From Desulfovibrio sp. TomC (GTDB taxonomy: Bacteria; Desulfobacterota; Desulfovibrionia; Desulfovibrionales; Desulfovibrionaceae), in NCBI RefSeq assembly GCF_000801335.2, contig NZ_JSEH01000033.1, forward strand, positions 1 to 39,678: DNA of 39,678 nucleotides. Reading direction: 5' to 3'. Shown piece by piece: positions 3,697 through 35,135 of the stretch; the stretch's first letter is position 1, and each line of letters starts with the position of its first letter. A program made the translations under genes and the position numbers. The notes below the pieces were generated by a model that had not been told where the DNA came from, searched no databases, and was given only the letters and a program-made list of their open reading frames with translations.

Positions 3697-3698
3697 CC

Positions 3699-4939: not shown

Positions 4940-4954
4940 GGGGAAAAGCAGCCC

Positions 4955-5230
4955 ATGCGCACCTTGACCATCCACCAATCCCTGCACCGGCACAGCCATG
5001 TCATGGGGGCCGAACGGGAACTGGTGCTGACCTGCGGGCTTATTGCCCTGCTGGTCGGCATCGGGGGCTTGAGCCTTCTGTCCGTGGTAACGGGGTTGAC
5101 CTTCTGGGTCATGGCCGTTTTTGTCCTGCGGCGCATGGCCAAGGCCGATCCGATCATGAGCAAGGTCTGGCTCAAACACATCAAGCAACAGCTTTTCTAC
5201 CCGGCCCGGGCCGGCGTCTGGAGAAAATGA
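4955..5230 (+). CDS. trbD: TrbD, VirB3-type inner-membrane protein
   Basis: A 91-residue protein with polar N-terminus (His-Arg-His-Ser-His region), two adjacent hydrophobic segments (about 25-60) and a basic C-terminus. This is the typical TrbD/VirB3 form. It is expected to work with the TrbE ATPase at the inner membrane. The stop codon overlaps the start of trbE (ATGA), so translation is coupled. Confidence 0.9.
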   Translation: MRTLTIHQSLHRHSHVMGAERELVLTCGLIALLVGIGGLSLLSVVTGLTFWVMAVFVLRRMAKADPIMSKVWLKHIKQQLFYPARAGVWRK

Positions 5231-7641: not shown

Positions 7642-7643
7642 CC

Positions 7644-8465: not shown

Positions 8466-8477
8466 CGCCTGTGAGTT

Positions 8478-10359: not shown

Positions 10360-10385
10360 TCGTTGGTTGGGAGGGAGGAAATCCT

Positions 10386-11363
10386 ATGCGAAGGGAAATA
10401 GCGATCTTGGCCTGTTTGCTCTGCCTTCACGGGCAGACGGCCCTGGCCCAGGATGGCCGCGACAAGGTCACCCTGGCCCAGGCGCGAAAGACCGTGGATG
10501 TGCCGCTTGAACGACAACTTCCGGAAGACGGCGCGGGTGTTGCGGACCTGCCGGGTCCGCCTCCACCCATGCCCGATTACATTAGCGACAAGCCGGTTAA
10601 GCTCACGGCCAAGGAACGCAAGGCCTTGGAGCTGGCCGAAGACTGGGCGGCCAAGTCCGTGACCCCAAGCCGCGACGGCAATGGCCGGGTGCTTTACGTG
10701 CATGGGGCGAGCCTGCCGACGGTCATCGCCTCGCCGTTTCAGGTCTGCGACGTGGAATTGCAGCCGGGCGAAACGCTCAACGAGGTCGTGGTCGGCGACT
10801 CGGCCCGCTGGCTGGTGGATGTGAGTAAGTCCGGCTCGGGCGAGGCCGAATCCGTCCATCTGCTCATCAAGCCGGTGGATGCAGGGCTGGAAACCTCCGC
10901 CGTGGTCACCACTAACCGCCGGGTCTATCACCTGCGTCTGGTTTCCCAGCGTTCCGGCCATACGCCCTACATCGGCTTCACCTACCAGGAAGATCATGTC
11001 CGCCATTTCAAGGAGCAGGCGGCCAAGGACGCCAAGGAGAAGCTCTGGCGAACGGCCGTAGTCGGCGGCCAGGACATGGACCTCAGCAAACTCCACTTCG
11101 GTTACGGCCTCAAGGGTCGGGCCGCCTGGAAGCCGACCCAGGTTTACGACGACGGCCGCCAGACCTTCATCCGCCTTCCTGATTCCACGGCTACCGGGGA
11201 AATGCCGATCCTGCTGGTGCGGAAAGCCTCGGGCAACGTGCTGGTCAACTACCGGGTGAAGGAACGGACCATGGTCATGGACGGCCTCTTCGACCGGGTT
11301 CTTCTCATTGTCGGCGTCGGCAGCGATCAGGAGAAAATCGAAATCACACGGGAGAAAAGCTGA
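10386..11363 (+). CDS. trbG: TrbG, VirB9-type outer-membrane core protein
   Basis: A 325-residue secreted protein. A signal peptide (about 1-22, ending Thr-Ala-Leu-Ala) precedes a Pro-rich linker and the VirB9 beta-sandwich domains. The motif Tyr-His-Leu-Arg-Leu-Val-Ser (about 180-186) and the C-terminal block Tyr-Gly-Leu-Lys-Gly...Trp-Lys-Pro-Thr-Gln-Val-Tyr-Asp-Asp-Gly are family hallmarks. With TrbH and TrbI it builds the channel across the envelope. Gly-Gly-Ala-Gly-Gly spacing and GGGAGGAAAT before the ATG support the start. Its stop overlaps the trbH start by one base. Confidence 0.95.
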   Translation: MRREIAILACLLCLHGQTALAQDGRDKVTLAQARKTVDVPLERQLPEDGAGVADLPGPPPPMPDYISDKPVKLTAKERKALELAEDWAAKSVTPSRDGNGRVLYVHGASLPTVIASPFQVCDVELQPGETLNEVVVGDSARWLVDVSKSGSGEAESVHLLIKPVDAGLETSAVVTTNRRVYHLRLVSQRSGHTPYIGFTYQEDHVRHFKEQAAKDAKEKLWRTAVVGGQDMDLSKLHFGYGLKGRAAWKPTQVYDDGRQTFIRLPDSTATGEMPILLVRKASGNVLVNYRVKERTMVMDGLFDRVLLIVGVGSDQEKIEITREKS

Positions 11364-11845
11364 TGCGCATCTACTTTATATATCTCTGGCTGGGCCTTTT
11401 GCTGGCTGGCTGCGCCCCCAGGCACATCGGATCATTCAGCGCCGAGGGAGTCACGCCAAAGCAGGAGGCTATCATTGCCGAGGATGCGGCGGGCAAAATC
11501 GCTGCCGAGTATCCGCCCGGAGTGACCGCCTTACACCTGGAGCAGGCCCGGCGCGGCCATTTCGACACGGCCCTGGAATCCCGGCTTCGGGAGCGCGGGT
11601 TTCGCCTGGAAGCGTCCGGCGGATCGGGCATCTTGTCCGTGGCCTACACCCTCGACGCTATCAAGGACGAGCCGAACGTCTGGTATCTGCACGTCAAGAC
11701 TTCGGACGGGTTTTCCTTCTCCAGGGTCTACGCCCTTGGTCCCGACACCAAACCCGATGGTGGCATGGTGCAGATGGCATCCCCCGAGAAAAGGGCTTCG
11801 TCGGAATCCGAGAATGTCTCGGTGGGCAAGGTGCTCCCGCAATAG
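11363..11845 (+). CDS. trbH: TrbH-like conjugation lipoprotein
   Basis: A 160-residue lipoprotein. The signal peptide ends in the lipobox Leu-Leu-Ala-Gly-Cys with Cys17 as the lipidation site. The mature part is alpha/beta in appearance and contains Ile-Leu-Ser-Val-Ala-Tyr-Thr-Leu-Asp. Its place between trbG and trbI matches TrbH, which takes the VirB7-like position stabilising the outer-membrane core. Similarity to TrbH is judged from position, lipobox and length, not from strong sequence motifs. Confidence 0.8.
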   Translation: MRIYFIYLWLGLLLAGCAPRHIGSFSAEGVTPKQEAIIAEDAAGKIAAEYPPGVTALHLEQARRGHFDTALESRLRERGFRLEASGGSGILSVAYTLDAIKDEPNVWYLHVKTSDGFSFSRVYALGPDTKPDGGMVQMASPEKRASSESENVSVGKVLPQ

Positions 11846-11869
11846 CCTCCCGCAACCATCGGAAATACC

Positions 11870-13114
11870 ATGTCCGACAATAGCCCCAACGAATTCACGC
11901 CCCCGGGAGCCGCCGGCCTGGCCGTGGCCAGGATGAGCAAAAAACCGCTCATCCTGGTCCTCCTTGCCGGCCTCGTGCTGGCGGCGGTCCTGATCTATTC
12001 GGTCAACTTCTCTGAACGCCGGAAAAAGGATGACGCGAAACTGGCCTCAGAGGTTGCCTCGGACAAGCCGTTGCTCTCCGGGGACGTTGGGCCGGGGCTG
12101 GCGGTTTCGCCTTCCAAGGAAAAGACCCCGGCAATTCTTGAACCCCAAAAGCCGATTGTCGTCGTTGCGCCAAAGAAAAACGACCAGGCCGAGGCCTGGC
12201 GGCGGGAACAGGAGCAGCTTCGTCGCTACAAGCTGCAAGCCCAGCTCAGTGCGCTGTCTTCTCCGCTGAGTGCCAAGAAAGGGGAGCAGACTCGGCAGCC
12301 GGCCGCACAAGCGAACCCAGGAACGGACGCCCCGGAGGGCCGGCAGCAGGAGACAGGGGACGGGGCAAAGGGACTGGCGGCAAGCCTCGCCGGGCTCGCA
12401 CCCGGCGACTACAACCCGGCGGCCGACAAGGACAAGGAAGCGTTTTTCAGCCGCGCCAAGCAGCAAGGGGGAGCGGACAAGGAATGGACGCTTCCGGGCA
12501 CGCGCACGCCCGGGCAACCCTTTGAAGTCAAAACCGGCACGGTCATCCCTGGCGTCATGATCACGGGCATCAATTCCGATCTGCCCGGCTCGATCATCGC
12601 CCAGGTCAGCCAGAATGTTTTCGATACGGCCACGGGCCGCAATCTGATCATCCCCCAGGGCGCGAAGCTTTTTGGCGTCTATGACTCCCGGATCATCTAC
12701 GGTCAGTCGCGAGTGCTCGTGGCCTGGAGCCGGATTATCTTCCCGGACGGCTCGGCGATCACCTTGGGCGCCATGCCCGGCGCGGACATGAGCGGTTACG
12801 CCGGCTTCAACGACGAAGTGAACAACCACTATCTCCGTGTGTTCGGCTCCGCCGTGCTCATGTCGCTCATCTCCGGCGGCAACGCCTTCGCCATGGACTC
12901 CCTCAATGTGAAGGGGAACACCTCAAGCAACGTCCCTTCCATGCAGGATGAGATGGCCTCGGCCCTGTCCAGCCAGCTTGGCCAAACCACCACCAAGCTT
13001 CTGGAGAAAAACCTCAACATCAAGCCGACGCTGGAAATCCGACCTGGCTACCAGTTCAACATCATCGTGACCAAGGACATGGTCATGAAGGCCCCGTATG
13101 AGTCCCTTCGGTAG
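11870..13114 (+). CDS. trbI: TrbI, VirB10-type envelope-spanning protein
   Basis: A 414-residue protein. It has a short cytoplasmic N-terminus, one inner-membrane helix (about 24-45), a long charged and Pro/Gln-rich periplasmic linker (about 50-190) and the conserved VirB10 beta-barrel domain (about 210-410). The latter has Lys-Thr-Gly-Thr-Val-Ile-Pro-Gly and Ile-Ile-Pro-Gln-Gly-Ala-Lys-Leu, both family signatures. The C-terminal Gly-Tyr-Gln-Phe-Asn-Ile-Ile-Val is also typical. It ends the trb block, and the next plus-strand gene is traG after a 341-bp gap that holds the hicB-like gene. Confidence 0.95.
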   Translation: MSDNSPNEFTPPGAAGLAVARMSKKPLILVLLAGLVLAAVLIYSVNFSERRKKDDAKLASEVASDKPLLSGDVGPGLAVSPSKEKTPAILEPQKPIVVVAPKKNDQAEAWRREQEQLRRYKLQAQLSALSSPLSAKKGEQTRQPAAQANPGTDAPEGRQQETGDGAKGLAASLAGLAPGDYNPAADKDKEAFFSRAKQQGGADKEWTLPGTRTPGQPFEVKTGTVIPGVMITGINSDLPGSIIAQVSQNVFDTATGRNLIIPQGAKLFGVYDSRIIYGQSRVLVAWSRIIFPDGSAITLGAMPGADMSGYAGFNDEVNNHYLRVFGSAVLMSLISGGNAFAMDSLNVKGNTSSNVPSMQDEMASALSSQLGQTTTKLLEKNLNIKPTLEIRPGYQFNIIVTKDMVMKAPYESLR

Positions 13115-13127
13115 GCTGCGCAAGCAG

Positions 13128-13361
13128 TCAGCAGGCGTCGGTGTTCCCGGCCTGCGGGGGAACTTCAGGCGTTTTGCCCTTCAGGGCGCAGAACTCCAGA
13201 TAATCCTCGACGGAATCCGCCAAGGCTTCTTTGAGTTCGTCAAGGGTGCGTCCCTGGAAGGTGATGACATCCGCCAGATGCATGACCTCACCGTGAAATA
13301 TGCCTGCGTCCTGGTCGTACTCGCACCGCCCCTGATGCCCTTTATACGTCATAATGTTCAT
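13128..13361 (-). CDS. Orphan HicB-family antitoxin-like protein
   Basis: A 77-residue protein of the HicB type: Tyr-Lys-Gly-His-Gln-Gly-Arg-Cys-Glu-Tyr-Asp, then Phe-His-Gly-Glu-Val, Asp-Val-Ile-Thr-Phe-Gln-Gly, and Glu-Asp-Tyr-Leu-Glu-Phe-Cys. This is the partial RNase H-like fold of HicB. The start at 13361 follows AAGGAAG by 8 bases. No HicA-type mRNA interferase (about 60 residues with a dsRBD-like fold) is found on either side, so the gene stands alone, against the direction of the transfer operon. It may be a solitary regulator or a leftover of a TA pair. Confidence 0.8.
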   Translation of the reverse strand: MNIMTYKGHQGRCEYDQDAGIFHGEVMHLADVITFQGRTLDELKEALADSVEDYLEFCALKGKTPEVPPQAGNTDAC

Positions 13362-13455
13362 AGCATTGCTTCCTTGGGAGCACTTATAGAACGGCTCCAT
13401 GCGGTTGCGTCAAGGAGGAGAATCAGGCCGGCAATAAAGCCAAAGGGGAGTATCG

Positions 13456-15456
13456 GTGCCTGCTGACCGGACATACGGTCTCGGGAAGGCCAGACGCCAG
13501 CGTCGTTCCCGTTGGCCGTATCTTGTCTTCGTGGCCGTCCTGGCCACGGTCGCCATGTCCGTCGCCACCCAGCGCGTGGCCTTTCTTTATGGTTTTCAGC
13601 CCGCTCTGGGGACTCCCTTGGTCAGGGCCTTCGAGGTTTCCTGGTATCTCCCCTGGAAAATCTTCGACTGGCAGGAACATATCGCGGACCGGCACGGCCA
13701 CATCCAGAAGTCGCTGGCTATCGCCCAGGCCGTCTTCATTCTCCCCCAACTTCTGGTATTTGGCCTTTGGCTTGGTCGCCTGCGCCTGAGCGAAGGCCGC
13801 GACGATCTACACGGATCGGCCCGTTGGGCCGATGAGACCGACATCCAGTCCATGGGACTCTTTGGCGGCCAGGGCGTCTATGTCGGGGGTTGGATCAAGG
13901 CCTTTCGAGGTTTGCCCGCCCTGGGGCGCTCCCTTGTCGGAAAGCCGGCATCCGTGCAGCTCTATCTGCGTCATAGCGGGCCGGAGCACATTCTGTGTTT
14001 CGCGCCGACCAGGTCCGGCAAGGGCGTGGGACTCATCCTGCCCACGCTGCTTTCCTGGTCAGACTCCACTGTGGTCTTCGACATAAAAGGCGAGAACTGG
14101 AGCCTTACCGCCGGGTACCGGAAATCCATCGGCCATACGGTGCTCAAGTTCGATCCCTCCGACGCCACGGGTGCTTCGGCCTGCTTCAATCCCCTGGAAG
14201 AAATCCGCCTGGAGACCATCCACGCCATTCCCGACGCTCAAAATCTCGTCGGCATGATCCTGGACCCACAAGGCAAGGGGCTGGCCGACTATTGGAACAA
14301 GGCGGCTTTCGCTTTTCTCGGCGGGACGCTGCTCCACGCTCTGGTCATGGTCAGGCATAAGGAGCAGCGCACGGCAACGCTTTTTGACCTTTCCCGCACG
14401 CTGGCCGACGCCCATCGGGGCGTCCGCGAGCTGTTCCAAGAAATGCTGGACACCGATCACGCCGCCTTGCTGGATACGATTTTTCCCGACGGGCACCAGG
14501 GCCAGGACCTGCACGCCTTCATCGCCTCGGCCGCCCGGGAGATTCTCAACAAGGCCGACAACGAACTGTCCGGCGTGGTCTCCACGGCCGTGGCCAACCT
14601 GGCGCTGTACCGCGACCCGGTGGTGGCCCGGAACATCGGCCACTCGGATTTCCGCTTGGCCGACCTCATGCACCATGAAAAGCCCGTAAGCCTCTATCTG
14701 GTCATCAGCCCGGCGGACATCGACCGTCTACGCCCACTCATCCGCATTGTTGTGAACCTGCTTCTCAGCCGGGGCACGGCTCGCATGGACTTCGGCGAGA
14801 AGTCCGAAGGCGTGGCTCCGAAGCATAGACTCCTGCTGCTTCTGGATGAGTTCACCGCCCTGGGTCGTCTCGACAGCATCGAACGGGCCATCGCCTACAT
14901 GGCCGGCTACGGCATCAAGGGCTATTTCATCGTTCAGGATATCGTGCAGTTAAGCGCCGTTTACGGCAAGGACAACGGGCTTATGGCCAACTGCCATATC
15001 CGCGTGGCCTATGCCCCCAACACCATCGAGACCGCTCAGGTGCTTTCCGCCATGACCGGCAAGACCACTGTGGTGGAGAAGAGAACCTCGCTTTCAGGCT
15101 CCCGCAGCGGATCGCTTAAGAACGCCTCGGTGAGCGTCTCGGAAACCGCCCGGCCGCTGTTGACCGAAGACGAGTGCATGCGCCTGCCCGGTCCCCAAAA
15201 GGATGCCGCAGGCAAGGTCGTCGCCCCGGGCGACATGCTGCTTTTTTGCGCCGGCCGGCCGCCCATCTATGGCCGGCAGATTCTCTACTTTTTGGACCCA
15301 GTTTTCTCCCGCCGTGCAGGCATCAAACCGCCTCAGCTTTCAGACTCCCTCAACCGCGAAATTGCCATGCCACCGGTTGATAAGCCCGAGCACGACACGG
15401 CCGCTGCCGAGCCGGACAAAGACAAAGGGTATGAGAGTTATCTTGAGCGTATGTAG
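13456..15456 (+). CDS. traG: TraG, VirD4-type coupling protein
   Basis: A 666-residue type IV coupling protein that links the relaxosome to the channel and pumps DNA. It has two N-terminal membrane helices (about 16-34 and 88-108) with a periplasmic loop. Walker A Pro-Thr-Arg-Ser-Gly-Lys-Gly lies at about 183-189 and Walker B Leu-Leu-Leu-Leu-Leu-Asp-Glu-Phe at about 457-464. The Asp-Ile-Lys-Gly-Glu-Asn strand after Walker A is typical of TraG/VirD4. The GTG start at 13456 follows AGGGGAG by 5 bases. It overlaps traF by 26 bp. Confidence 0.95.
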   Translation: MPADRTYGLGKARRQRRSRWPYLVFVAVLATVAMSVATQRVAFLYGFQPALGTPLVRAFEVSWYLPWKIFDWQEHIADRHGHIQKSLAIAQAVFILPQLLVFGLWLGRLRLSEGRDDLHGSARWADETDIQSMGLFGGQGVYVGGWIKAFRGLPALGRSLVGKPASVQLYLRHSGPEHILCFAPTRSGKGVGLILPTLLSWSDSTVVFDIKGENWSLTAGYRKSIGHTVLKFDPSDATGASACFNPLEEIRLETIHAIPDAQNLVGMILDPQGKGLADYWNKAAFAFLGGTLLHALVMVRHKEQRTATLFDLSRTLADAHRGVRELFQEMLDTDHAALLDTIFPDGHQGQDLHAFIASAAREILNKADNELSGVVSTAVANLALYRDPVVARNIGHSDFRLADLMHHEKPVSLYLVISPADIDRLRPLIRIVVNLLLSRGTARMDFGEKSEGVAPKHRLLLLLDEFTALGRLDSIERAIAYMAGYGIKGYFIVQDIVQLSAVYGKDNGLMANCHIRVAYAPNTIETAQVLSAMTGKTTVVEKRTSLSGSRSGSLKNASVSVSETARPLLTEDECMRLPGPQKDAAGKVVAPGDMLLFCAGRPPIYGRQILYFLDPVFSRRAGIKPPQLSDSLNREIAMPPVDKPEHDTAAAEPDKDKGYESYLERM

Positions 15457-15958
15457 CCTGACGCTGGCTGCCTTGGGCCTCTTTTGGATCTTCAGCCTGC
15501 GGGTTAACGCCACGGCCTCAATGCCCCGAGGCGTTTATCGCCTTATCCCCGGCCTTCTGGAGCGCGACGATCTGGTCAGCTTCTGTCTGGAGGAAGGTGA
15601 TTTCGCCAATTTGGCTCTGGATCGGGGCTACCTGCGCCCCGGTTCCTGTCCCAATGGCCTGGAACCCCTGCTTAAGCGCGTCGCCGGCATACCCGGTGAT
15701 CGGCTTGAAATCAGCCAGGGCGGCATCGCGATCAATGGCCGGTTATGGCCCCAAAGCCGGGCTGTTTACCGGGATGGGCATGACCGACCGATGCCTGACG
15801 CCAAGAGCTTAAAATCGAGGACGATCCCGGATGGTCTGGTGCTGGTACTTTCCGACCGGCATCCCGGCGGCTTCGACGGGCGGTATTTTGGGTTGGTCCC
15901 CATTGCCACCCTGCAAAAGGTCGAGCCTGTATTTCTTTTGGACCCCAAAGGAGAATGA
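15431..15958 (+). CDS. traF: TraF, pilin-maturation peptidase (S26 family)
   Basis: A 175-residue membrane-bound peptidase related to leader peptidase. In IncP plasmids TraF cuts and cyclises the TrbC pilin. One N-terminal membrane helix (about 4-22) is followed by Ala-Ser-Met-Pro-Arg-Gly with nucleophile Ser30, and Leu-Lys-Arg-Val-Ala-Gly with general-base Lys82, the S26 dyad. The Arg-Ala-Val-Tyr and Gly-Arg-Tyr-Phe-Gly strand region also fits. It begins inside traG and is immediately followed by a small ORF. Confidence 0.92.
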   Translation: MRVILSVCSLTLAALGLFWIFSLRVNATASMPRGVYRLIPGLLERDDLVSFCLEEGDFANLALDRGYLRPGSCPNGLEPLLKRVAGIPGDRLEISQGGIAINGRLWPQSRAVYRDGHDRPMPDAKSLKSRTIPDGLVLVLSDRHPGGFDGRYFGLVPIATLQKVEPVFLLDPKGE

Positions 15959-18384: not shown

Positions 18385-18401
18385 CGTGTCGATTCTACTC
18401 G
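18385..18401. promoter_or_regulatory. Candidate upstream activator site for the ZraR-like regulator
   Basis: CGTGTCGA, T, TCTACTCG: an imperfect 17-bp palindrome (6 of 8 paired positions match). It agrees at 12 of 17 positions with the perfect palindrome at 22212-22228. Its right edge is 97 bp upstream of the sigma-54 promoter at 18498, the usual distance for NtrC-family activators. The 245 bp between traC and the next gene hold this site, the promoter and AT-rich DNA, and no gene that I can see. Confidence 0.45.
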
Positions 18402-18497
18402 GCAATGTACAGAAATTATACATGCGGTCACATGAGAGTCCTACCCTGCATCCATGTATAGCTAATTATCAATGATAGTTATGCGTTCAGTCCCTGA

Positions 18498-18513
18498 TGG
18501 AACAACATTTGCT
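18498..18513 (+). promoter_or_regulatory. Sigma-54 (RpoN) promoter
   Basis: TGGAACAACATTTGCT matches the -24/-12 consensus TGGCACG-N4-TTGCW at all but two non-essential positions, with the invariant GG and GC separated by exactly 10 bases. It lies 63 bp upstream of the small secreted protein gene, and a sigma-54 activator is encoded nearby at 18976-20346. Between promoter and gene, CCAGGG/CCCTGG (18540-18558) can form a short hairpin just before the ribosome binding site. Confidence 0.7.
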
Positions 18514-18575
18514 ATTGGCAAAGTATACAATTTGTCGGTCCAGGGCCTTCGTCCCTGGTCAAAAGGAGTGCCTTT

Positions 18576-18854
18576 ATGAAACGTGTTCTTACCCTTATCA
18601 CCTTGTCGGCCATGTTGCTGCTGGCCGGTAGCGCCTTCGCCGCCCCTACCGTGATGGGTTTCAGCGGCCCGGCCACCTCGACCGGGGGCAGCACCTCCGC
18701 TGTTTATGGACCCAATACGGGTTCCACGACAAGCACCCCTGGGTTCGGCCAGATGGGGGCGAGCGGGGTCATGAGCGGTTTCGGTCAGGCTGGTTCCACC
18801 GTGACCACGGACTCGCAGAGCTGGTTCGAATCCATGATGCCCTGGCTTTTCTAA
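18576..18854 (+). CDS. Small secreted Gly/Ser/Thr-rich protein
   Basis: A 92-residue protein with a clear Sec signal peptide (about 1-23, ending Ser-Ala-Phe-Ala-Ala). The mature part of about 69 residues is low in complexity, rich in Gly, Ser and Thr, and has no Cys. It ends in a hydrophobic, aromatic tail (Trp-Phe-Glu-Ser-Met-Met-Pro-Trp-Leu-Phe). AAAGGAG lies 8 bases before the ATG. The upstream sigma-54 promoter and activator-like palindrome suggest control by the convergent ZraSR-like pair. A truncated relative with similar composition and aromatic end lies at 24067-24228. I do not recognise a named family; a periplasmic or surface role in envelope or metal stress is inference. Confidence 0.8.
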   Translation: MKRVLTLITLSAMLLLAGSAFAAPTVMGFSGPATSTGGSTSAVYGPNTGSTTSTPGFGQMGASGVMSGFGQAGSTVTTDSQSWFESMMPWLF

Positions 18855-18917
18855 ACATCCTCCCCTGGCTTCCCTGGCAAGGTCCAAGGTCCGCCAGCGA
18901 CGGCCTCAGAGCGCTGC

Positions 18918-18956
18918 CACCCTCCTCCCAAGCCAACGGGAGGAGGGTGTTTGTTT
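18918..18956 (+). terminator. Rho-independent terminator
   Basis: A perfect 12-bp stem, CACCCTCCTCCC (18918-18929) with GGGAGGAGGGTG (18938-18949), an 8-base loop, then TTTGTTT. It ends the small secreted protein transcript before it reads into the convergent zraR-like gene. There is no T-run on the opposite strand. Confidence 0.9.
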
Positions 18957-18975
18957 CTAGAGCACCTCCACCCTA

Positions 18976-20346
18976 TTATCGCTGCAATTTCGCCAGCAGA
19001 GTCTTCCTTGTGATCCCAAGCTGCTTAGCGGCTTCGGTCTTATTGCCACCCGTCGTCTCCAGCGCCGCCAGGATTGCCTCACGCTCCACCTCCTCCAAGG
19101 GCAGAATTCCTCCTGGGCCTCGATGCGGCGACAGCTCAGTCGGTTGTCCCTCAGGCCCATGAGCTTGGTTGATACTCAACGGCAGCTCCTTCTCGGTGAC
19201 GAAGTCCCCCGGCATGAGCACGACCGCCCGCTCCACGGCGTTTTCCAGCTCGCGGACGTTGCCCGGCCAGTCATATTTGATGAGCATGTCCATGGCCTGG
19301 GGCGTGAAGCCCTTGGCGACCTTCCTGTTCGCCTCAGCGAATTTGCCCAGAAAGTGCATGGCCAAAAGCGGCACGTCCTCCCCGCGATCCCGAAGCGGTG
19401 GGACGGTGATGGCCATGACGTTGAGGCGGTAATAAAGGTCTTGCCTGAACTTTCCCGCCGCGACCTCCTTCTTGAGGTCACGGTTCGTCGCCGCCACGAT
19501 GCGCACGTCTACCCGAAGGACGTTGTCGCTCCCTACTCTTTGTATTTCCCGCTCTTGGATCACCCGGAGGAGCTTCGCCTGCATGGCGGAGGATATTTCT
19601 CCAATCTCGTCGAGAAAGATCGTCCCTTTGTTGGCCTGCATGAACCGGCCTTCGCGCCGCTTGTCAGCACCCGTGAAAGCCCCTTTCTCATGTCCAAACA
19701 GCTCCGATTCCAGAAGCGTTTCGCTTAAGGCCGCGCAGTTCACGATGACGAGGGGACCGTTCCGGCGCGGGCTGTTGAAATGAATGGCCTTGGCGACGAG
19801 TTCCTTGCCCGTGCCGGACTGGCCGGTAATGAGCACCGTCGCCTCGGAGGGCGCGACCATGGCCACCGTCTCCATGAGCCGGCGCATGGCTTCGCTACGG
19901 CCGACGATGCTCCTGGGGGCAAACGAGGAGACAAGGCGGTCCCGGAGTTCCTGGTTCTCGGCCTTAAGCGAAACATGCTCCAAGGCCCGCTCCATGGTCA
20001 TCCGGAGCAGGTCGAAATCCAGCGGCTTGGTCAGGTAGTCGTACGCCCCCGCCTTGATCGCCTCCACCGCCGATTCCACATTCGAATAGGCGGTCATGAT
20101 GAGGATGGGGATGGAGGGATTGTACGCCTTGATTTCCTTCAGCGCCTCAATGCCACCCATGACCGCCATGCGCACGTCCATGAGGATGAGGTCGAAGGGT
20201 TTTTCCCTGGCCAGCGTAACTGCCTTTGTCCCGTCGTCGGCCCCTGCCGCCTTGTATCCCCAGCCATTGATAAGGGCCAAAAGAATGGTGCGGTGCCCCT
20301 GGTCGTCGTCAACGACCAGAACGGTCGCTTTATGCTTTTCGGCCAT
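18976..20346 (-). CDS. zraR: Sigma-54-dependent response regulator, ZraR/NtrC-like
   Basis: A 456-residue activator. The receiver domain (about 6-120) has the phospho-acceptor Asp57 in Leu-Met-Asp-Val-Arg and the conserved Asp-Asp-Asp at 13-15. The AAA+ domain (about 145-370) has Walker A Gly-Gln-Ser-Gly-Thr-Gly-Lys-Glu and the sigma-54 contact loop Gly-Ala-Phe-Thr-Gly-Ala. A Fis-type HTH closes the protein (Gly-Gly-Asn-Lys-Thr-Glu-Ala-Ala-Lys-Gln-Leu-Gly). The start at 20346 opens directly on the receiver and overlaps the kinase gene by 17 bp. Open frame upstream of that lies inside the kinase gene. The class is certain; the name ZraR is by analogy, supported by the neighbouring ZraP-like gene. 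Confidence 0.9.
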   Translation of the reverse strand: MAEKHKATVLVVDDDQGHRTILLALINGWGYKAAGADDGTKAVTLAREKPFDLILMDVRMAVMGGIEALKEIKAYNPSIPILIMTAYSNVESAVEAIKAGAYDYLTKPLDFDLLRMTMERALEHVSLKAENQELRDRLVSSFAPRSIVGRSEAMRRLMETVAMVAPSEATVLITGQSGTGKELVAKAIHFNSPRRNGPLVIVNCAALSETLLESELFGHEKGAFTGADKRREGRFMQANKGTIFLDEIGEISSAMQAKLLRVIQEREIQRVGSDNVLRVDVRIVAATNRDLKKEVAAGKFRQDLYYRLNVMAITVPPLRDRGEDVPLLAMHFLGKFAEANRKVAKGFTPQAMDMLIKYDWPGNVRELENAVERAVVLMPGDFVTEKELPLSINQAHGPEGQPTELSPHRGPGGILPLEEVEREAILAALETTGGNKTEAAKQLGITRKTLLAKLQR

Positions 20347-22114
20347 GAAACGCTCCTTCCGGCCGCCCCACGGGCAGGAGGATGTTGAAGGTGGTGCCCC
20401 GGCCGGGCGTGCTCTTGACCTTGACCTCTCCCCGGTGGGCCTCAATAATCTTTTGCACAATGGCCAAGCCAAGGCCGGTGCCGGAGGATTTTGTGGTGAA
20501 GTAGGGGTTAAAGATGCTCGACAGGCTCTCGGGCGTAATCCCCTTGCCCGAATCTTCCACCTCGATCCGCACGCCCCCTCGGCCGTCGGAGGATGCCCTG
20601 ACGGCAAGCGTCCCGCCGCCTTCCATGGCCTGGATGGCGTTGAGGTATAGGTTGAGTAGGGCCTGGGTGAGGCGGTCGGGGTCGATAGCGATGACGGGCA
20701 GGCTCGCGTCCCGGTCGAAGGCGACCGTGATCTTTTTCCCTTCGGCGTCCTGGCGGACCAAGCGCAGGGAATGCTCGATGAGACCGCCCACATCCATCGG
20801 CCGCGCCTTCAGGTCCGATGACCGGGCGAAGTCCAGGAGTTCCGTGATGACCCGGTTCAGCCGGTCCACCTCTTGGGCCATGACGGCGGCAAGCTCCCGG
20901 CCATGGCTGCCCTCGGCGCACTGCCCCTCGAAATATTTGGCGAAACCCTTGATTGAGGAGAGGGGGTTTCTGATCTCGTGGGCGACGCCGGCGGCCAGGC
21001 TGCCCAGGGCGGCGAGCTTTTCCTTGCGGCGCACCTCTTCCTGGAGCCTTCTTACCTCTCCCAGGTCGCGGAAGATGAAGAGGTTACCGAGGTAGCGTCC
21101 TTCCTCGTTAAGGATTTTCGACGCGCTCAGGCTCAAGGGAATATTTTTTCCCCCGTTAAAAGAGCACTCCATATCATGTTCCAGGACAGGTTCGCCCTTG
21201 CCGATGACATCCTTAAGTCCACACCATGCTGCGGGCAGAGCCTCCTCCGGGGACTTGCCGACAATGTCGGCCGCCTTGACCCCGGAAATCCTCTCGGCCG
21301 CGCCGTTGACCACAGCCAGACGGCCGTCGCTGTCCGTGGTGATGAGTCCAACCGGGAGGTTGTTGATGATCTCTGAAGAAAAAACCCTTGTGTCCTGGAG
21401 TTGTCGTTTGGAAAATCGGTAACTTTGCGCCCAAAACAGGGTCATGACGCCGCCGACGCCAAGTAGGAGAAGAATGGCCGACAAAATGACTGTATTGCGC
21501 ATATCCTCGGCCAGGGCCGCATCAAAGGACGCGACATCAAACGCGGTGAAGACGGCCTGCTTTCCGGTCCCCTGGGAGGCGCTCGGCCCGCTCCATGGAC
21601 ACGAGACCGGCTGTCCGTTTGCGTCGCAGGAATCCAACGCATCGCATCCGGCCAGAGGTTCGAAGTAGCGGTAGACCTCAAAGGCCTTTCGCCCCCCCGG
21701 CAGGGTTGTCATCCGCCATTTTTCCTTCGCCCCGATTTCCAGCTCCCTCATCTCTTCGGGACTATGGAGTCTGGAGCCGATCTGGCCCTTGTCGCTATCG
21801 GCCAGGATCACCCCAGCCTCATTCGTCACGGCCAGATAGAGGATGTCGGGTTGTTTCGCCATCTCCTCAAGAAGCACTTGGTATTGCTCGCCTTCCCAAT
21901 GCATCCCCATGCCCGTGCGCGCTCCCGATTCAAATGCTCTGATGAAAGCTGTTCCCTTTTCAAAAAGTGTCTGGGCGGCAAGGCCTTTCTCTCGATGGGT
22001 GTTCCGCACCGCCATGACGGCGACAATTCCGGCCAGGATAATGACCGAACCGAGGTAAAGCCACGGTGGCATATTCTCTAAGAAAATGTGCCATTCCTTT
22101 GATTTTTTTTGCAT
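20330..22114 (-). CDS. zraS: Membrane sensor histidine kinase, ZraS-like
   Basis: A 594-residue kinase. Two membrane helices (about 18-36 and 219-241) enclose a periplasmic sensor of about 180 residues. This is followed by a PAS domain (about 262-360), HisKA with phospho-acceptor His379 in Val-Ala-His-Glu-Ile-Arg-Asn-Pro-Leu, and a HATPase (N box Leu-Tyr-Leu-Asn-Ala-Ile-Gln-Ala; Gly-Thr-Gly-Leu-Gly-Leu). The sensor carries a Cys cluster (Gly-Cys-Asp-Ala-Leu-Asp-Ser-Cys, then Val-Ser-Cys-Pro-Trp), a possible metal or redox site. The start at 22114 follows GGAGAAAGAAG; the upstream open frame to 22231 would run through the palindrome and has no ribosome site. Zinc or copper as signal is inferred from context only. 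Confidence 0.9.
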   Translation of the reverse strand: MQKKSKEWHIFLENMPPWLYLGSVIILAGIVAVMAVRNTHREKGLAAQTLFEKGTAFIRAFESGARTGMGMHWEGEQYQVLLEEMAKQPDILYLAVTNEAGVILADSDKGQIGSRLHSPEEMRELEIGAKEKWRMTTLPGGRKAFEVYRYFEPLAGCDALDSCDANGQPVSCPWSGPSASQGTGKQAVFTAFDVASFDAALAEDMRNTVILSAILLLLGVGGVMTLFWAQSYRFSKRQLQDTRVFSSEIINNLPVGLITTDSDGRLAVVNGAAERISGVKAADIVGKSPEEALPAAWCGLKDVIGKGEPVLEHDMECSFNGGKNIPLSLSASKILNEEGRYLGNLFIFRDLGEVRRLQEEVRRKEKLAALGSLAAGVAHEIRNPLSSIKGFAKYFEGQCAEGSHGRELAAVMAQEVDRLNRVITELLDFARSSDLKARPMDVGGLIEHSLRLVRQDAEGKKITVAFDRDASLPVIAIDPDRLTQALLNLYLNAIQAMEGGGTLAVRASSDGRGGVRIEVEDSGKGITPESLSSIFNPYFTTKSSGTGLGLAIVQKIIEAHRGEVKVKSTPGRGTTFNILLPVGRPEGAFHGRKA

Positions 22115-22211
22115 AACGACTTCTTTCTCCAGACGAATCAGCTTGGGATGGCCACCGAATGGGAAACAATAAGGCCGCCGCGTAAAAAGTAAACGGGCTT
22201 GAAAATAATTT

Positions 22212-22228
22212 CGAGTAAAATTTACTCG
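22212..22228. promoter_or_regulatory. Palindromic upstream activator site candidate
   Basis: CGAGTAAA, A, TTTACTCG is a perfect 8+1+8 palindrome in the spacer between the divergent kinase and SHOCT genes. Its right edge is 85 bp upstream of the sigma-54 promoter at 22313 and about 100 bp upstream of the kinase start. This is the expected place for binding of an NtrC-type regulator, and the site could also mediate autoregulation of the kinase-regulator operon. A degenerate copy occurs at 18385-18401. Confidence 0.6.
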
Positions 22229-22312
22229 CAAGCTCGGCGCGCCGCATCATCAGCTTCCGTCATATTGAATTTAATCATTTTATTTTAGTATGTTATCCAT
22301 TGGCTGGGGCTT

Positions 22313-22327
22313 TGGCACGTCCCTTGC
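22313..22327 (+). promoter_or_regulatory. Sigma-54 (RpoN) promoter
   Basis: TGGCACGTCCCTTGC is an exact match to the TGGCACG-N4-TTGC consensus, with GG and GC 10 bases apart. It drives the SHOCT protein gene 67 bp downstream and, before the IS element arrived, probably the whole small-protein/ZraP-like operon. It is the strongest promoter call in the window. Confidence 0.9.
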
Positions 22328-22394
22328 GGTAAGGGAATCAAACTGAGGCGATTTGAAAGATAACAACATCCCACGCTAAACCAGGAGGCCATAT

Positions 22395-22640
22395 ATGATG
22401 TGGGACTGCGGATTCCCTCTCTCCTCTCTCTGGATAGGAGGCAACGTTCTCTGGGGGCTGGGAGCGATTCTGTTGATGACCGTGCTCTTAGGGATTTTTC
22501 TTTTAGGAGCAAGGAAAACCGACAAAACCCATCGTGCCGACAGGGACGATTCCTTGGAGATCATCAAAGCGCGCCTGGCAAGGGGTGAGATCAACCAGGA
22601 AGACTACCTGGAAATCAAGAAGGTCTTGGAACAGGCGTAG
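22395..22640 (+). CDS. Small membrane protein with SHOCT domain
   Basis: An 81-residue protein. One membrane helix (about 17-38) is followed by a charged linker and a C-terminal SHOCT motif (about 52-80: Ile-Ile-Lys-Ala-Arg-Leu-Ala-Arg-Gly-Glu-Ile, then Tyr-Leu-Glu-Ile-Lys-Lys-Val-Leu). SHOCT is a short oligomerisation module often found at the ends of small membrane proteins. AGGAGG stands 8 bases before the ATG at 22395. It is the first gene after the exact sigma-54 promoter, and its stop is only 6 bp from the IS element. Confidence 0.88.
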   Translation: MMWDCGFPLSSLWIGGNVLWGLGAILLMTVLLGIFLLGARKTDKTHRADRDDSLEIIKARLARGEINQEDYLEIKKVLEQA

Positions 22641-22712
22641 AATGAGTGAGGCGGACCCGGTTTTCTTTGACACCGAATTGTGCCAGGATGATGGTCCAGG
22701 GAGGGCCAGGAA

Positions 22713-23123
22713 ATGACGAATGGGGACATGCTTGAGAGCGGTGGGCCGGGGGTGGAGACCATGGGTCCGGAGGGAGGCCGTAGGCCGACCGGAGGAACCA
22801 CGGTCGAGTGTTCGGGGCCATTGATGAAGAGCCAGCGGTGGACATCGTCCAGGAAGCGTGAGGTTGTGTTACGCATCCTGCGCGGCGAGCCTTTGAATAT
22901 GCTCTCCAGGGAACTTGGGGTCGAGATCTATCGGCTTGAGCAGTGGCGTGATGCTGCCTTGGCCGGCATGGACGAGGGACTCAAGAGTCGCATCGGTGAC
23001 CCACTCCAGGCCGAATTGGACTCAGCCATGAAGCGAATTGGCGAGTTGACCATGGAGACCGAGCTATTGTGGGCACGGGTGAGGCATCCCGGCCCTTTAG
23101 CCAAAAGGAGGTCGAAGAAATGA
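22713..23123 (+). CDS. IS3-family transposase OrfA
   Basis: A 136-residue HTH protein. The DNA-binding part starts near residue 38 (Met-Lys-Ser-Gln-Arg-Trp, then Lys-Arg-Glu-Val-Val-Leu-Arg-Ile-Leu-Arg-Gly-Glu), with a second helix Leu-Ser-Arg-Glu-Leu-Gly-Val and a leucine-zipper-like C-terminal segment. It recognises the IS ends. The first 37 residues are Gly/Pro-rich and atypical, so an internal start at residue 38 is possible. Its stop overlaps the orfB start (ATGA). Confidence 0.85.
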   Translation: MTNGDMLESGGPGVETMGPEGGRRPTGGTTVECSGPLMKSQRWTSSRKREVVLRILRGEPLNMLSRELGVEIYRLEQWRDAALAGMDEGLKSRIGDPLQAELDSAMKRIGELTMETELLWARVRHPGPLAKRRSKK

Positions 23124-24031
23124 GCTGCACGACCTCCTCAGACATCGGCAAGCCCTATGGCATCAAGCGGGTTTGTTGGATTTGGGGGCAGCCCCGTTCG
23201 TCATTTTACTCGGCTCGCCTGGGCTGCCAGTTGGAGAGGGACCGGATTCCAGCCGGGAAACGAGGACCCAAGGCCCTCATTGACGACCTGGAGTTGCTGG
23301 GTATGGTCAAGACCGATCTCGACACCTCTCCTTTCCAGGGCGAAGGTCATCGCAAGGTATGGGCGCGCCTGCGGATTCGGGATGGCGTGCGGGTCGGGCG
23401 CAAGCGGGTGTTGCGGATCATGCGCGAGAACAATCTGCTTTCTCCATCTCGTGGCCGGCGCGGCAGCGCCATTCTGCATGATGGGCAGATCGTGACCCAG
23501 GCCCCGAACGTGATGTGGGGCACTGACGGCGCAAGGGTATTCACCGTGAACGATGGCTGGGTCTGGATTTTCTCGGTGGTTGATCATTGGAATGCGGAGT
23601 GCATGGGGTCGCACGTCTGTAAGTATGGAACGCGATTCGCGGCCCTGGAGCCGATCAGCCAAGGGATCATGCCCATTGCCGGTTCGGTCGGACCCGATGC
23701 CGGGCGCGGCCTAGCCCTGCGTATGGACCACGGAACGCAATATCTGTCGGACCACTTCCTGAAACAAATCAAGTATTGGGGTGTCAGCCCGAGCTTCGCT
23801 TTCGTAGAGCAGCCGCAGACAAACGGCGTGGCTGAACGCTTCAACAAAACGCTCAAGGAGCAGGCGATCTACGGCCGGATTTTCCACTCCCTGGAAGACG
23901 TCCGCCAGGCTGTGGGGGAATTCGTTGAACGATACAATGACCAGTGGCTCGTGGAGAAAAATGGCTTCAAAAGCCCACGCCAAGCTCGACGTGATTGGCA
24001 GGCTGCCGGCAAAATGCTAACGGCGGCTTAA
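23120..24031 (+). CDS. IS3-family transposase OrfB (DDE integrase core)
   Basis: A 303-residue transposase. An HTH_21-like region (Arg-Lys-Val-Trp-Ala-Arg-Leu...Val-Leu-Arg-Ile-Met-Arg-Glu-Asn-Asn-Leu) precedes the rve core. Catalytic residues are present: Asp in Trp-Gly-Thr-Asp-Gly, Asp in Met-Asp-His-Gly-Thr-Gln-Tyr, and Glu in Asn-Gly-Val-Ala-Glu-Arg-Phe. It therefore looks active. AAAGGAGG 8 bases before the ATG inside the end of orfA suggests reinitiation. No canonical slippery heptamer is obvious. Confidence 0.92.
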   Translation: MSCTTSSDIGKPYGIKRVCWIWGQPRSSFYSARLGCQLERDRIPAGKRGPKALIDDLELLGMVKTDLDTSPFQGEGHRKVWARLRIRDGVRVGRKRVLRIMRENNLLSPSRGRRGSAILHDGQIVTQAPNVMWGTDGARVFTVNDGWVWIFSVVDHWNAECMGSHVCKYGTRFAALEPISQGIMPIAGSVGPDAGRGLALRMDHGTQYLSDHFLKQIKYWGVSPSFAFVEQPQTNGVAERFNKTLKEQAIYGRIFHSLEDVRQAVGEFVERYNDQWLVEKNGFKSPRQARRDWQAAGKMLTAA

Positions 24032-24066
24032 AGCTAAACTGTGTCCAGAAAACCGGGCGCGGTACA

Positions 24067-24302: not shown

Positions 24303-24779
24303 ATGAACACACGCAAACACCTCGTCGGTCTGGCCCTGGTCCTGGTGGCCCTTTTGGGACTGAGCGGGCTAGCCAATGCCCAGATGGTGGGTTCCGGCAC
24401 AATGAGTGGGCAGGGTATGATGAATGGGCAGGGCATGATGGGCGGCAACATGATGACGGGCCTGACCCCGGAAAAGCAAGCAGCCGTTCAAAAAATCCAC
24501 GCCGATTTCAACGCGGTCACCGCCTCCCTGCGTCAGCAACTTACCTCCAAGCAGTACGAATTAAACGCCCAAATCTACAGCGCCACCCCTGACGACAAAA
24601 AGGTCCAGGCCCTGACCAAGGAGGTTTCCGACATGCGCGCCAAGCTCTTCGAGGCCCAGGTGGCCCTGCAAGGTCGGCTGACCAAGGAAGGCCTCCCGAC
24701 CATGGGCGGCATGGGCATGATGGGGTCGTGTATGATAGGTGGAAATGGCATGATGGGGCCGGGCATGATGAGCATGTAG
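24303..24779 (+). CDS. zraP: ZraP-like Met-rich periplasmic metal-binding protein
   Basis: A 158-residue protein of the LTXXQ/ZraP (periplasmic heavy-metal sensor) type. A signal peptide ends near residue 26 (Leu-Ala-Asn-Ala-Gln), and a first Met/Gly-rich stretch follows (about 30-52). A helical core (about 53-130) has Leu-Thr-Pro-Glu-Lys-Gln-Ala-Ala-Val-Gln-Lys-Ile, the LTxxQ motif. A second Met/Gly-rich tail (about 136-158) carries one Cys. E. coli ZraP is a zinc-bound chaperone that represses ZraSR signalling. The Met clusters here suggest copper binding. AAGGAG precedes the ATG. The IS now separates it from the sigma-54 promoter; a TGTTGTCAACA palindrome lies at 24246-24256. Confidence 0.85.
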   Translation: MNTRKHLVGLALVLVALLGLSGLANAQMVGSGTMSGQGMMNGQGMMGGNMMTGLTPEKQAAVQKIHADFNAVTASLRQQLTSKQYELNAQIYSATPDDKKVQALTKEVSDMRAKLFEAQVALQGRLTKEGLPTMGGMGMMGSCMIGGNGMMGPGMMSM

Positions 24780-28309: not shown

Positions 28310-30274
28310 ATGAGCGAGGATGAAACAAAACACCTATTTGAAGAAGGGACCATCATAAACGGCAAATGGACGATCCTGGATCACATCGCAACCGGCGGCA
28401 AGGGCGAGGTCTATCTTGCCAAACAGCGAGACCTGGATCGTCGGGTGGCCCTGAAGATTATATCTCGGGCCTTTCTGAAGAGCCTGGCTGACGACGAGGC
28501 TGAAATGGCGGTGGAGCTGGAACGGTTTCGACGGGAAGTTCAGGTCATGGCCCGGCTGCGTCACCCCAATATCCTCCAGGTGTTTGACTACGACCAGGTG
28601 GAGATCGATGGTTCTCCTCTGAACTATCTCGTCATGGAATACGTGCCCGGTCCCACCCTGGCCCTGACCATGCCCGAAGATGGCCTTGGGAGCGACGCGG
28701 AGACTCTCAAGAACTGGATACGACAATATTTCCTGCCCGTCTGCAACGGTATGGAGGCCGTGCACGCCCAGGGCGTCATCCACCGCGACATCAAACCCGC
28801 CAATGTGCTCATCGACGATGGGACGCCCAAAATCGCCGACTTCGGCCTGGCCGGGGGCAACGTACGCGATTGCGTGACCCAAGACCATCATATCCTCGGC
28901 ACGTTGCCCTACATGGCCGAGGAACAGTTTCTGGACTTGAACCTGGCCGACACCCGAGCCGACGTATTCTCCCTAGGCCGGGTCTTGTTCGAGGCCATGG
29001 CCGGGAAAAAAGCCCTGAAGAAAGCCAAGCCATTCGACACGGTAGGGTTGGAAAATCCGGTTAGCGACTTTCAAAAGCGCCTGGATCGAATCATCCGGCA
29101 GGCCTCGGCCAAAAATGTGGCCAAGCGCCTGCCGTCGGTCAGAACCCTGCGCCTTGCCCTGGAAGAACTCGTGGCCGAGGCCCCAACCAAGGGAGCTTAC
29201 CAGGGCGCACCACACCGAACCGTTTGGCTCGTCTCGGCCGCGATCCTGGCCGTACTTTTCGGGGGAGGGCTGCTTTACCACTTCCTGTGGCAAATGCCGT
29301 CGCGGCAGGCCGGGCAGGTGGAGTTGAAAATGGAGAAGGCTACGCCGCAGCCCTCTCCGATGCCCCAAGCCCCTGCCCAACCTGGAACGGAAACACCGCC
29401 CCCCTTGCGCCTAGCCCCGGGCGAGACGCCGCCCCAGCGTTTGGCCACACCAGACGGCTCGAAGTTTGCTCTGGTCCCCGGCGGCGAGATTTCATTGAAG
29501 AGCGATGGCGGCACCCTGGAAACCATCCAAGTCGCCCCGTTTTATATGGAAGAAACCCAAGTCACCAATCACCAGTACATCATGTTTCTCAATCGAGTAC
29601 GCAACCATATCCAGGTCAAAAAAGAAGCGGTTTACGGCGAGGACGGCCTATGGCTGCTGCTGGGGGAGGTCGCCCCGGGTTATGAGCCAATCGCCTACCG
29701 GGACGGCGAATTCGTGATGGACATGACCAATGGCGTTAACCCCGTCGTCCGGGTCACGGCCAAGGGAGCGCGGGCCTATGCCCATTTCTTCGGCCGCAGG
29801 ATACCCACCCTGGCCGAATGGGAATTGGCTAGGCAGGAGGGGGCGAAAAACGAGAAGCCGGTTTCGATCCTGCCCTTGCCAAGTCCGTTCCAACTCGTTC
29901 AGCACATGCACGCCGCGCCTGAACCTGCCCCGCCCTTATCTCCTGCCCCGGAGAACCCCACGCAAGCCACGCCGAAACAAGTCAAATCGTCCGTTTCGCC
30001 CGTGCCAAAGCCCGTGCCGACTCCGTCGGCCTCACGGCGCGAGGTCTTCCCCGTGGGCGAAGCGTCGACCAATGGGCTCGGCATCAAAGGGTTGGGAGTC
30101 AACGTCAACGAATGGACTACGGTGAAGACCGGCGCCGAAACGGAATATTTCATCGTGGGCGGCGCCAGGCCCAGCAGGACCAAGGAGCCTTATAAGCGCC
30201 AAAAATGGGAGGCCTTCGGCGATGTGGGGTTCCGCACGGTCATCCCCCTGCCCCAACCGCAAACTTCTATGTAG
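28310..30274 (+). CDS. Ser/Thr protein kinase fused to a formylglycine-enzyme-like domain
   Basis: A 654-residue membrane protein. The PknB-type kinase domain (about 18-285) is complete: Gly-loop Ala-Thr-Gly-Gly-Lys-Gly-Glu-Val, Lys49, catalytic His-Arg-Asp-Ile-Lys-Pro-Ala-Asn (about 159-166), Asp-Phe-Gly-Leu-Ala. One membrane helix (about 305-326) and a Pro-rich linker follow. The periplasmic part (about 380-650) resembles FGE/SUMF1 folds (Phe-Tyr-Met-Glu-Glu-Thr-Gln-Val-Thr, Arg-Ile-Pro-Thr-Leu-Ala-Glu-Trp-Glu, Gly-Phe-Arg-Thr-Val). It is interrupted by a Pro-rich insert at about 525-580. The FGE part is probably a sensor and not an enzyme. It forms a pair with the PP2C gene 13 bp downstream. 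The 216-bp gap before it holds nothing I can identify. Confidence 0.9.
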   Translation: MSEDETKHLFEEGTIINGKWTILDHIATGGKGEVYLAKQRDLDRRVALKIISRAFLKSLADDEAEMAVELERFRREVQVMARLRHPNILQVFDYDQVEIDGSPLNYLVMEYVPGPTLALTMPEDGLGSDAETLKNWIRQYFLPVCNGMEAVHAQGVIHRDIKPANVLIDDGTPKIADFGLAGGNVRDCVTQDHHILGTLPYMAEEQFLDLNLADTRADVFSLGRVLFEAMAGKKALKKAKPFDTVGLENPVSDFQKRLDRIIRQASAKNVAKRLPSVRTLRLALEELVAEAPTKGAYQGAPHRTVWLVSAAILAVLFGGGLLYHFLWQMPSRQAGQVELKMEKATPQPSPMPQAPAQPGTETPPPLRLAPGETPPQRLATPDGSKFALVPGGEISLKSDGGTLETIQVAPFYMEETQVTNHQYIMFLNRVRNHIQVKKEAVYGEDGLWLLLGEVAPGYEPIAYRDGEFVMDMTNGVNPVVRVTAKGARAYAHFFGRRIPTLAEWELARQEGAKNEKPVSILPLPSPFQLVQHMHAAPEPAPPLSPAPENPTQATPKQVKSSVSPVPKPVPTPSASRREVFPVGEASTNGLGIKGLGVNVNEWTTVKTGAETEYFIVGGARPSRTKEPYKRQKWEAFGDVGFRTVIPLPQPQTSM

Positions 30275-30287
30275 ATGAAGGACAGCC

Positions 30288-31001
30288 ATGCAAGCATTCG
30301 GGGCGAGCGATCAAGGACGGGTCAGACGTCAAAATCAGGACCGATTCCTGGTCAGGCAACTGCCGGACGGTTCCATGCTCCTGGCCGTGGCCGACGGTCT
30401 TGGCGGCCAGGCTGGGGGCGACGTGGCGGCCCAGGCGGTTGTTGACGCCCTGGTCCGTCTGGAACCAGGCGACGGCCCGCCCGAGTGGCTATTGGCCTTG
30501 GCCGTGGAAACGGCTGCGACCGATATCCAAGAAAAAACCTTGGCCGACCCAAAGCTGGCCGGCATGGGCTCCACCGCCACCGTTGTTTGGGTACAAAACA
30601 ATTTTGCCGTTTACGCTCACATCGGCGATAGCCGCCTCTACCTGTGGCGCAACGGCGTTTTGTCCAGGATCACTACCGACCATACCTTTCTCCAGGATTT
30701 TTTGGACGATGGCAGTCTCACACCGGAACAGATTAAGGACCATCCGTTCCGGAACATACTGGACAAGTGCGTGGGCTGCGACGGGTCCGAGCCGGACACC
30801 GGGAGCCTCGCGCTGCACGAGGGCGACGCCCTGCTTTTGTGCACTGACGGGTTATTCAAGGAGCTTCACGAGGCGGACATCGCCGCTATCATGGCCTCGG
30901 GCGCAACACCACAGGAAACGGCGACCACATTGCTCAACCAGGCTCTGGCAGCCGGCGGGCGTGACAACATCACCGTGGTCATGCTGCGGCTAACGCTTTG
31001 A
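30288..31001 (+). CDS. PP2C-type Ser/Thr protein phosphatase
   Basis: A 237-residue cytoplasmic phosphatase. Metal-binding motifs are present: Arg-Arg-Gln-Asn-Gln-Asp-Arg (about 12-18), Val-Ala-Asp-Gly-Leu-Gly-Gly (about 34-40), His-Ile-Gly-Asp-Ser-Arg, Leu-Cys-Thr-Asp-Gly-Leu, and Gly-Gly-Arg-Asp-Asn-Ile-Thr near the C-terminus. It starts 13 bp after the kinase gene, with AAGGACAGCC before the ATG, and presumably reverses that kinase, as with PknB/Stp pairs. Confidence 0.95.
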   Translation: MQAFGASDQGRVRRQNQDRFLVRQLPDGSMLLAVADGLGGQAGGDVAAQAVVDALVRLEPGDGPPEWLLALAVETAATDIQEKTLADPKLAGMGSTATVVWVQNNFAVYAHIGDSRLYLWRNGVLSRITTDHTFLQDFLDDGSLTPEQIKDHPFRNILDKCVGCDGSEPDTGSLALHEGDALLLCTDGLFKELHEADIAAIMASGATPQETATTLLNQALAAGGRDNITVVMLRLTL

Positions 31002-32312: not shown

Positions 32313-32369
32313 GAGGTTCTCCTGTAGCGTCAGATAGCTACAAATTATTGTATGGAGTGGAGTGGTCAA

Positions 32370-33809: not shown

Positions 33810-33836
33810 CCGCCCCCAACCCCCGGAGAATGCCCT

Positions 33837-35120: not shown

Positions 35121-35135
35121 GCGAGAACAAATTTT

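Follow-up and report, generated by a model that had tools for sequence, protein, structure and literature searches.

A putative ZraR-type control region in the divergent spacer of a ZraSR-like pair of Desulfovibrio sp. TomC

In the genome of Desulfovibrio sp. TomC, the genes for a sensor kinase and a sigma-54 activator are flanked by two sequences resembling sigma-54 promoters, each preceded by a palindrome, which raises the question of where this activator docks on DNA and which genes it serves. The sequence studied was contig NZ_JSEH01000033.1 (39,678 bases), the whole of which is hereafter called the window. An earlier note on this DNA had read the two palindrome-promoter units as a probable regulon and had derived from them a binding motif for the regulator.

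The ZraSR-like pair and the SHOCT operon

Both genes of the pair lie on the minus strand. The sensor histidine kinase (20330..22114) passed the NCBIfam ZraS model with 541.7 bits (cut-off 479). According to Pfam, NCBIfam and alignment, the regulator (18976..20346) comprises a receiver domain, an AAA domain with the GAFTGA motif and a Fis-type HTH. With 667.6 bits it does not reach the NCBIfam ZraR cut-off of 760, yet this was the best of 115 models. We named it ZraR-like because it falls below that cut-off though 295 of 449 aligned positions (66%) are identical to E. coli ZraR, with which it has the recognition helix GITRKTLLAKL in common. Its best solved-structure match by sequence is also ZraR (1ojl). 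By these comparisons, the pair is ZraSR-like. A tblastn search with the AAA part of the regulator confirmed the statement of the earlier note that it is the only sigma-54 activator in the window. The search of plasmid DNA returned only distant matches, to ZraR/ZraS-type or other activators, and none covered more than 80% of the query.

The first gene of the operon (22395..22640, plus strand) encodes a small membrane protein with a C-terminal SHOCT domain (Pfam); its membrane helix was called by eye, as were the signal peptides and the limits of the insertion sequence. On the same strand, 24303..24779 encodes a ZraP-like periplasmic protein of the Pfam family Metal_resist (it shares 45 of 123 residues with E. 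coli ZraP), for which NCBIfam ZraP was the best model at 85.7 bits against a cut-off of 200. An IS3-like insertion within the operon (approximately 22656..24057, plus strand) separates this gene from the promoter. It has imperfect inverted ends (CCCGGTTTTCT and AGAAAACCGGG), and the best model of its transposase was the IS3 family with 138.9 bits, under the cut-off of 160. In relatives, orthologs of the SHOCT gene adjoin the kinase gene, and the zraP-type gene lies behind SHOCT in the same direction. The order in close relatives is zraP or a similar gene, small secreted genes and SHOCT, divergent from kinase and regulator; further relatives vary. At the position of the insertion, in the gap between SHOCT and zraP, relatives carry two or three small genes for secreted Gly/aromatic-rich proteins. 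Behind the insertion, an open stretch that ends in LDFMGDFWR is perhaps a remnant; a profile did not find it.

The surroundings of the locus include conjugation genes at 3600-15500, of which TrbE (4795-7641) was called by model and the rest by eye. At 32348-38877 follow CusA/CzcA-type efflux genes (CusA and the adaptor by model) with a Met-rich small protein. Together, these two stretches look like a mobile metal-resistance region. At 28310-31001, a gene that looks PP2C-like by eye comes after a protein kinase gene with an FGE-sulfatase-like part, an order also present in the contig of Desulfovibrio sp. DV.

The intergenic region and its conservation

The divergent spacer of the pair holds a predicted tandem ZraR box and a sigma-54 promoter. 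Box 1, identified by pattern search, alignment and its E. coli counterparts, is the perfect palindrome CGAGTAAAATTTACTCG at 22212..22228 (no strand assigned; 8/8 pairs matched). It was the sole match with at most three mismatches in the 39,678 bases, and one or more such matches arose in 4 of 100 shuffles. Motif search and alignment placed the promoter of the SHOCT gene, TGGCACGTCCCTTGC, at 22313..22327 on the plus strand; it is the only exact sigma-54 match in the window and lies 85 bp downstream of box 1. This unit of box and promoter is far beyond chance. Seven intergenic regions were aligned, at most six of them distinct since the rows of contig C37 of the same genome and of genome G010 look identical, and the letters CGAGT and TTACTCG of box 1 as well as TGGCAC and TTGC of the promoter were invariant in all seven rows.

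The same alignment revealed a second element, CGCGTAAAAAGTAAACG at 22179..22195 (plus strand), whose core GTAAAAAGTAAAC at 22182-22194 was likewise invariant in 7/7 rows. The earlier note had described a single palindromic site for this promoter; box 1 holds, and this second element had been overlooked. The centres of its 17-bp frame and of box 1 are 33 bp apart. Box pairs 33-34 bp apart were observed at L043, L046 and L050, and L120 reads CGAGTAAAAAGTAAACG at the position of the second element, 34 bp from its own box 1. As in E. coli, two elements in tandem make up the predicted enhancer at 22179-22228. That the second of these elements is non-palindromic counts against this region being a ZraR-type control region.

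When the TomC genome was searched for the box pattern with up to three mismatches, five places were obtained, fewer than with the reversed control (11). Because of these counts, the loose pattern alone is uninformative genome-wide, while the tight pattern is informative; the best two matches (0 and 2 mismatches) were the two SHOCT operons. A box core with 0-2 mismatches precedes an exact sigma-54 site by 84-87 bp in the window, C37, G001, G009/L021, G010, G012/L027 and G013/L020, each of these paired labels being judged one genome. The composite GAGT-N7-ACTC followed by a sigma-54 site was found at eight places in 6 of the 14 genus genomes, and nowhere with the reversed control. The kinase was also searched for in these 14 genomes, at E <=1e-60 and with 95 candidates scored in each. 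Seven copies at 68-100% identity were confined to the six composite-bearing genomes, with a composite place beside each of the seven; the conservation of the palindrome near orthologous genes, whose absence the earlier note had set as its refutation test, was thus found. None of the 14 copies at 45-48% identity, in 13 genomes, had the composite. The eighth place (G013, Desulfovibrio sp. DV, L121:7036-7592) belongs to a second SHOCT operon, which has box and sigma-54 site but no kinase or regulator match within the 16 kb read; the pair is about 17 kb away. This operon would be controlled at a distance and would offer a precedent for more than one target. Among 348 genomes of the order, the composite occurred at nine places in seven genomes (control: 2), eight of which were SHOCT operons. 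The ninth, in G046, lies within a 265-codon frame and was taken as chance.

The type of box was then compared with the recognition helix in 39 scored regions, using the patterns GRGTAA-N3-TTACYC and GRTTAA-N3-TTAAYC, both of which were written after inspecting the same loci and have 10 of 12 positions in common, so that a score of 10 on the pattern of the other class is frequent. With helix ITRKTL[L/Q]AK, 12 of 13 regions carried the first pattern at 11 or 12 of 12 positions (shuffle p <=0.005). The remaining one, L056, had no box upstream of the kinase, which also counts against the ZraR reading of the window site. Among 15 regions with helix ITRTTL[N/D]NK, six had the full second pattern, four scored 11 and five scored 10 (p 0.055-0.09); the L044 site of this class scored 11 on both patterns. 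Neither pattern was found in the nine regions with ITRKT[L/M]H (p at least 0.195 for the first and at least 0.285 for the second), some of which carry GGGTAAA...GTTAC-like sites (by eye). L031 fell outside all helix classes and L055 was scored without a helix row. Eight other kinase-bearing loci were left unscored by class: an earlier box search had given no box at L045, L048, L049, L059, L064 and L065, a T-like box at L053 and a G-like one at L061. Across the relatives compared, box type appears to track the recognition helix. This rule rests on few events because three changes suffice for four helix labels in a tree of 41 regulators, which retained the helix columns. The tree joins Solidesulfovibrio with Enterobacterales (support 99/95). 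The ZraR group spans phyla (L022-L026, L056, L062, L063, L099 and the window), which suggests horizontal transfer.

The 22212 palindrome might instead act as an RNA hairpin, a terminator or attenuator directed towards the kinase gene, and not as a protein-binding site. A weak terminator-like match was indeed present on the minus strand (1 against 0.5 in shuffles), but the hairpin would have just three G-C pairs, and relatives break its inner pairs (GAGTAAAGCCTACTC) and keep the outer CGAGT/ACTCG and the distance to the sigma-54 site. The link between box type and regulator helix also argues against a hairpin, which we regard as highly improbable. We read 22212-22228 as a ZraR box because its conservation is tied to the kinase, the E. 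coli boxes are alike and the box type tracks the recognition helix. Most probably, a ZraR-type regulator of envelope/metal stress docks on the DNA at this palindrome.

We estimate at roughly 0.88 the probability that 22115-22394, the intergenic region, forms a ZraR-type control region that works as proposed here. The observed basis is the sequence, its conservation and the helix identity with E. coli ZraR, from which we infer binding, phosphorylation, activation and signal. The ZraS-like kinase would sense envelope or metal stress, as in E. coli, and would phosphorylate the ZraR-like activator. Judging by conservation, the activator would bind the tandem pair 22179-22195 and 22212-22228, and its AAA domain would open the sigma-54 polymerase at 22313, which would turn on the SHOCT gene. 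The operon continues in relatives through the small secreted genes to zraP; the IS3-like element interrupts the window copy. Since the kinase gene, too, has the boxes upstream of it, autoregulation is possible, but no sigma-54-like site faces this gene. The proposed signal is drawn by analogy with E. coli, and the strong decrease of zraP under copper reported for D. alaskensis (PMC8836040) counts against it.

The box of the window could also be served mainly by a paralog, leaving the window copy redundant. Contig C37 (L115) carries another ZraSR-like pair with its own box and SHOCT operon, and its regulator, which is 92% identical and has the same helix, should read the same box as the window regulator. 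On the other hand, the window pair is intact and adjoins its box, and we find such a takeover unlikely. Cross-talk between the C37 pair and the window pair is possible. A third ZraSR-like pair, on contig C15 (L143), has 66% identity for the regulator and 44-46% for the kinase, and the helix ITRATLHKK. It served as a check of the helix comparison within the TomC genome: upstream of it an exact sigma-54 site is present, but every box candidate had at least 5 mismatches of 14. G004 has the same helix, likewise without a box.

With the control region at 22115-22394 read as ZraR-type, a sulfate reducer now has exact boxes for a ZraR-type regulon. Solidesulfovibrio, whose regulators share a clade with those of Enterobacterales, has the E. 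coli-type box too. The comparison of three classes of recognition helix and DNA site is testable with native proteins.

The second candidate promoter at 18498

The second unit was described accurately in its parts by the earlier note. Its box, CGTGTCGATTCTACTCG at 18385..18401 (no strand assigned; pattern search and shuffles), is degenerate, with 6/8 pairs and four mismatches, and is the only other site in the window with at most four. The candidate promoter TGGAACAACATTTGC at 18498..18512 (plus strand; motif search, matrix and shuffles) has one mismatch to the sigma-54 motif, and the spacing of 97 bp, like the 85 bp of the first unit, agrees with the coordinates. As behind 22313, a small gene follows, at 18576..18854 on the plus strand; this open reading frame encodes a Gly/Ser/Thr-rich protein of 92 aa with a signal peptide called by eye. 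An inverted repeat, ATGTA-N9-TACAT, was seen by eye at 18405-18423, between the degenerate box and the promoter.

Does this unit belong to the same regulator, or is it a chance resemblance, with a different promoter or a different activator driving the 18576 gene? Scored with a matrix built from 42 published intergenic sigma-54 sites of E. coli, the promoters at 22313 (14.1) and 18498 (14.0) ranked second and third; the first rank went to 31320, an intragenic site on the minus strand. The score of 18498 falls within the range of the 42 E. coli sites (8.4-22.8), but the A at its fourth position was seen in none of them. Sigma-54-like sites with up to two mismatches were at chance level in the window (41 vs. 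49.6 in shuffles), and those with up to one mismatch numbered 5 vs. 3.5 (40 shuffles). The core of the box at 18386 ranked third of 39,664 positions when the box matrix contained the window's own box; with a matrix of 13 sites from which that box was excluded, it scored 9.7 vs. 25.4 for box 1. Of 400 block-shuffled windows, just one held a pair as good as 18385/18498, the thresholds having been fixed post hoc at the observed scores. Also against chance, the half-site TACTC with a promoter occurred at four places in the TomC genome (control: 2), namely 18396, 22223, C37 and C8, the last overlapping a coding frame. The four mismatches of the box speak for chance, as does the lack of a tandem element near 18385, where the best match had 5 of 13 mismatches. 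The search for a sigma-70-like site upstream of the 18576 gene found none, which says little as shuffles give 0.4.

The small gene itself had no Pfam or NCBIfam family and no match in plasmids. Matches at E <=0.05 were found in 13 of 59 genomes, TomC included, and no clear homolog was present in the 58 others (best E 0.011). A relationship to the small secreted genes that separate SHOCT from zraP in relatives was not supported, as most of 19 pairwise comparisons, several of them of near-copies, did not beat shuffles; L117_9294 and its L021 copy beat all 200. Within the TomC genome, a profile of four small secreted proteins did not find the 18576 protein at E <=1. This lack of a clear homolog in genomes, plasmids and profile also favors chance resemblance, to which we give even odds. 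The alternative, a weaker second target of the same regulator, falls slightly short of that. The proposed regulon and binding motif are retained for 22212/22313, given its kinase-tied conservation and a box that follows the helix, and were not established for 18385/18498, where the shuffles are suggestive and both clear homolog and tandem element are lacking. More tentatively still, the change of helix from ITRKTLLAK to ITRTTLNNK may switch base 3 of the half-site from G to T/C and ITRKT[L/M]H may read an asymmetric site, a helix-to-DNA code, with the window regulator having in addition gained the orphan secreted-protein gene 18576.

Comparison with known systems

ZraR-type stress switches are already known from E. 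coli and Desulfovibrio, and the window system adds another member. E. coli ZraR was reportedly footprinted long ago. We take DVU3382, DVU3381 and DVU3384 of D. vulgaris to be ZraS, ZraR and ZraP. The motif is not new in kind, given two similar E. coli boxes and a published ZraR consensus (PMC7657598). In the literature searched, the terms ZraR and SHOCT, or ZraR and GAGTAAA, gave nothing relevant, which says only that they do not meet there. In D. vulgaris, DVU3381 is listed as a sigma-54 response regulator of the 'envelope stress response' with targets DVU3382-DVU3381 and DVU3384 (PMC4641369), and it is among the regulators in a gel-shift figure of motif validation (PMC3333781). Like the window, it is a sigma-54 regulator system of a sulfate reducer, whose reported targets are its own pair and DVU3384 (PMC4641369). 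Unlike the window, the Nitratidesulfovibrio locus L037, related to that of D. vulgaris, has helix TRKTLHAK and no GAGTAAA-type palindrome.

In E. coli, ZraR is reported to bind the zraP/zraSR spacer (PMC8249747) and sigma-54 to be bound at zraP and zraS (PMC4591121). Targets may extend beyond these genes, as ChIP-exo added mgtA (PMC7657598) and binding to the rsd and rmf promoters was reported in vitro (PMC10003395). A sigma-54 site of its own serves zraS in E. coli (PMC4591121), in which the window kinase gene differs. The window also differs by its IS-split operon, by its SHOCT gene, absent from the annotated neighbours of E. coli zraSR, and by the PAS stretch of its kinase, absent from the E. 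coli kinase. In E. coli K-12, two similar boxes lie 31 bp apart between zraP and zraS, and, by eye, the one nearer in letters departs from box 1 of the window at 2 of 17 positions. As in the E. coli ZraSR-ZraP system, a kinase and a sigma-54 activator stand beside a divergent target, putatively of zraP type, with a sigma-54 promoter.
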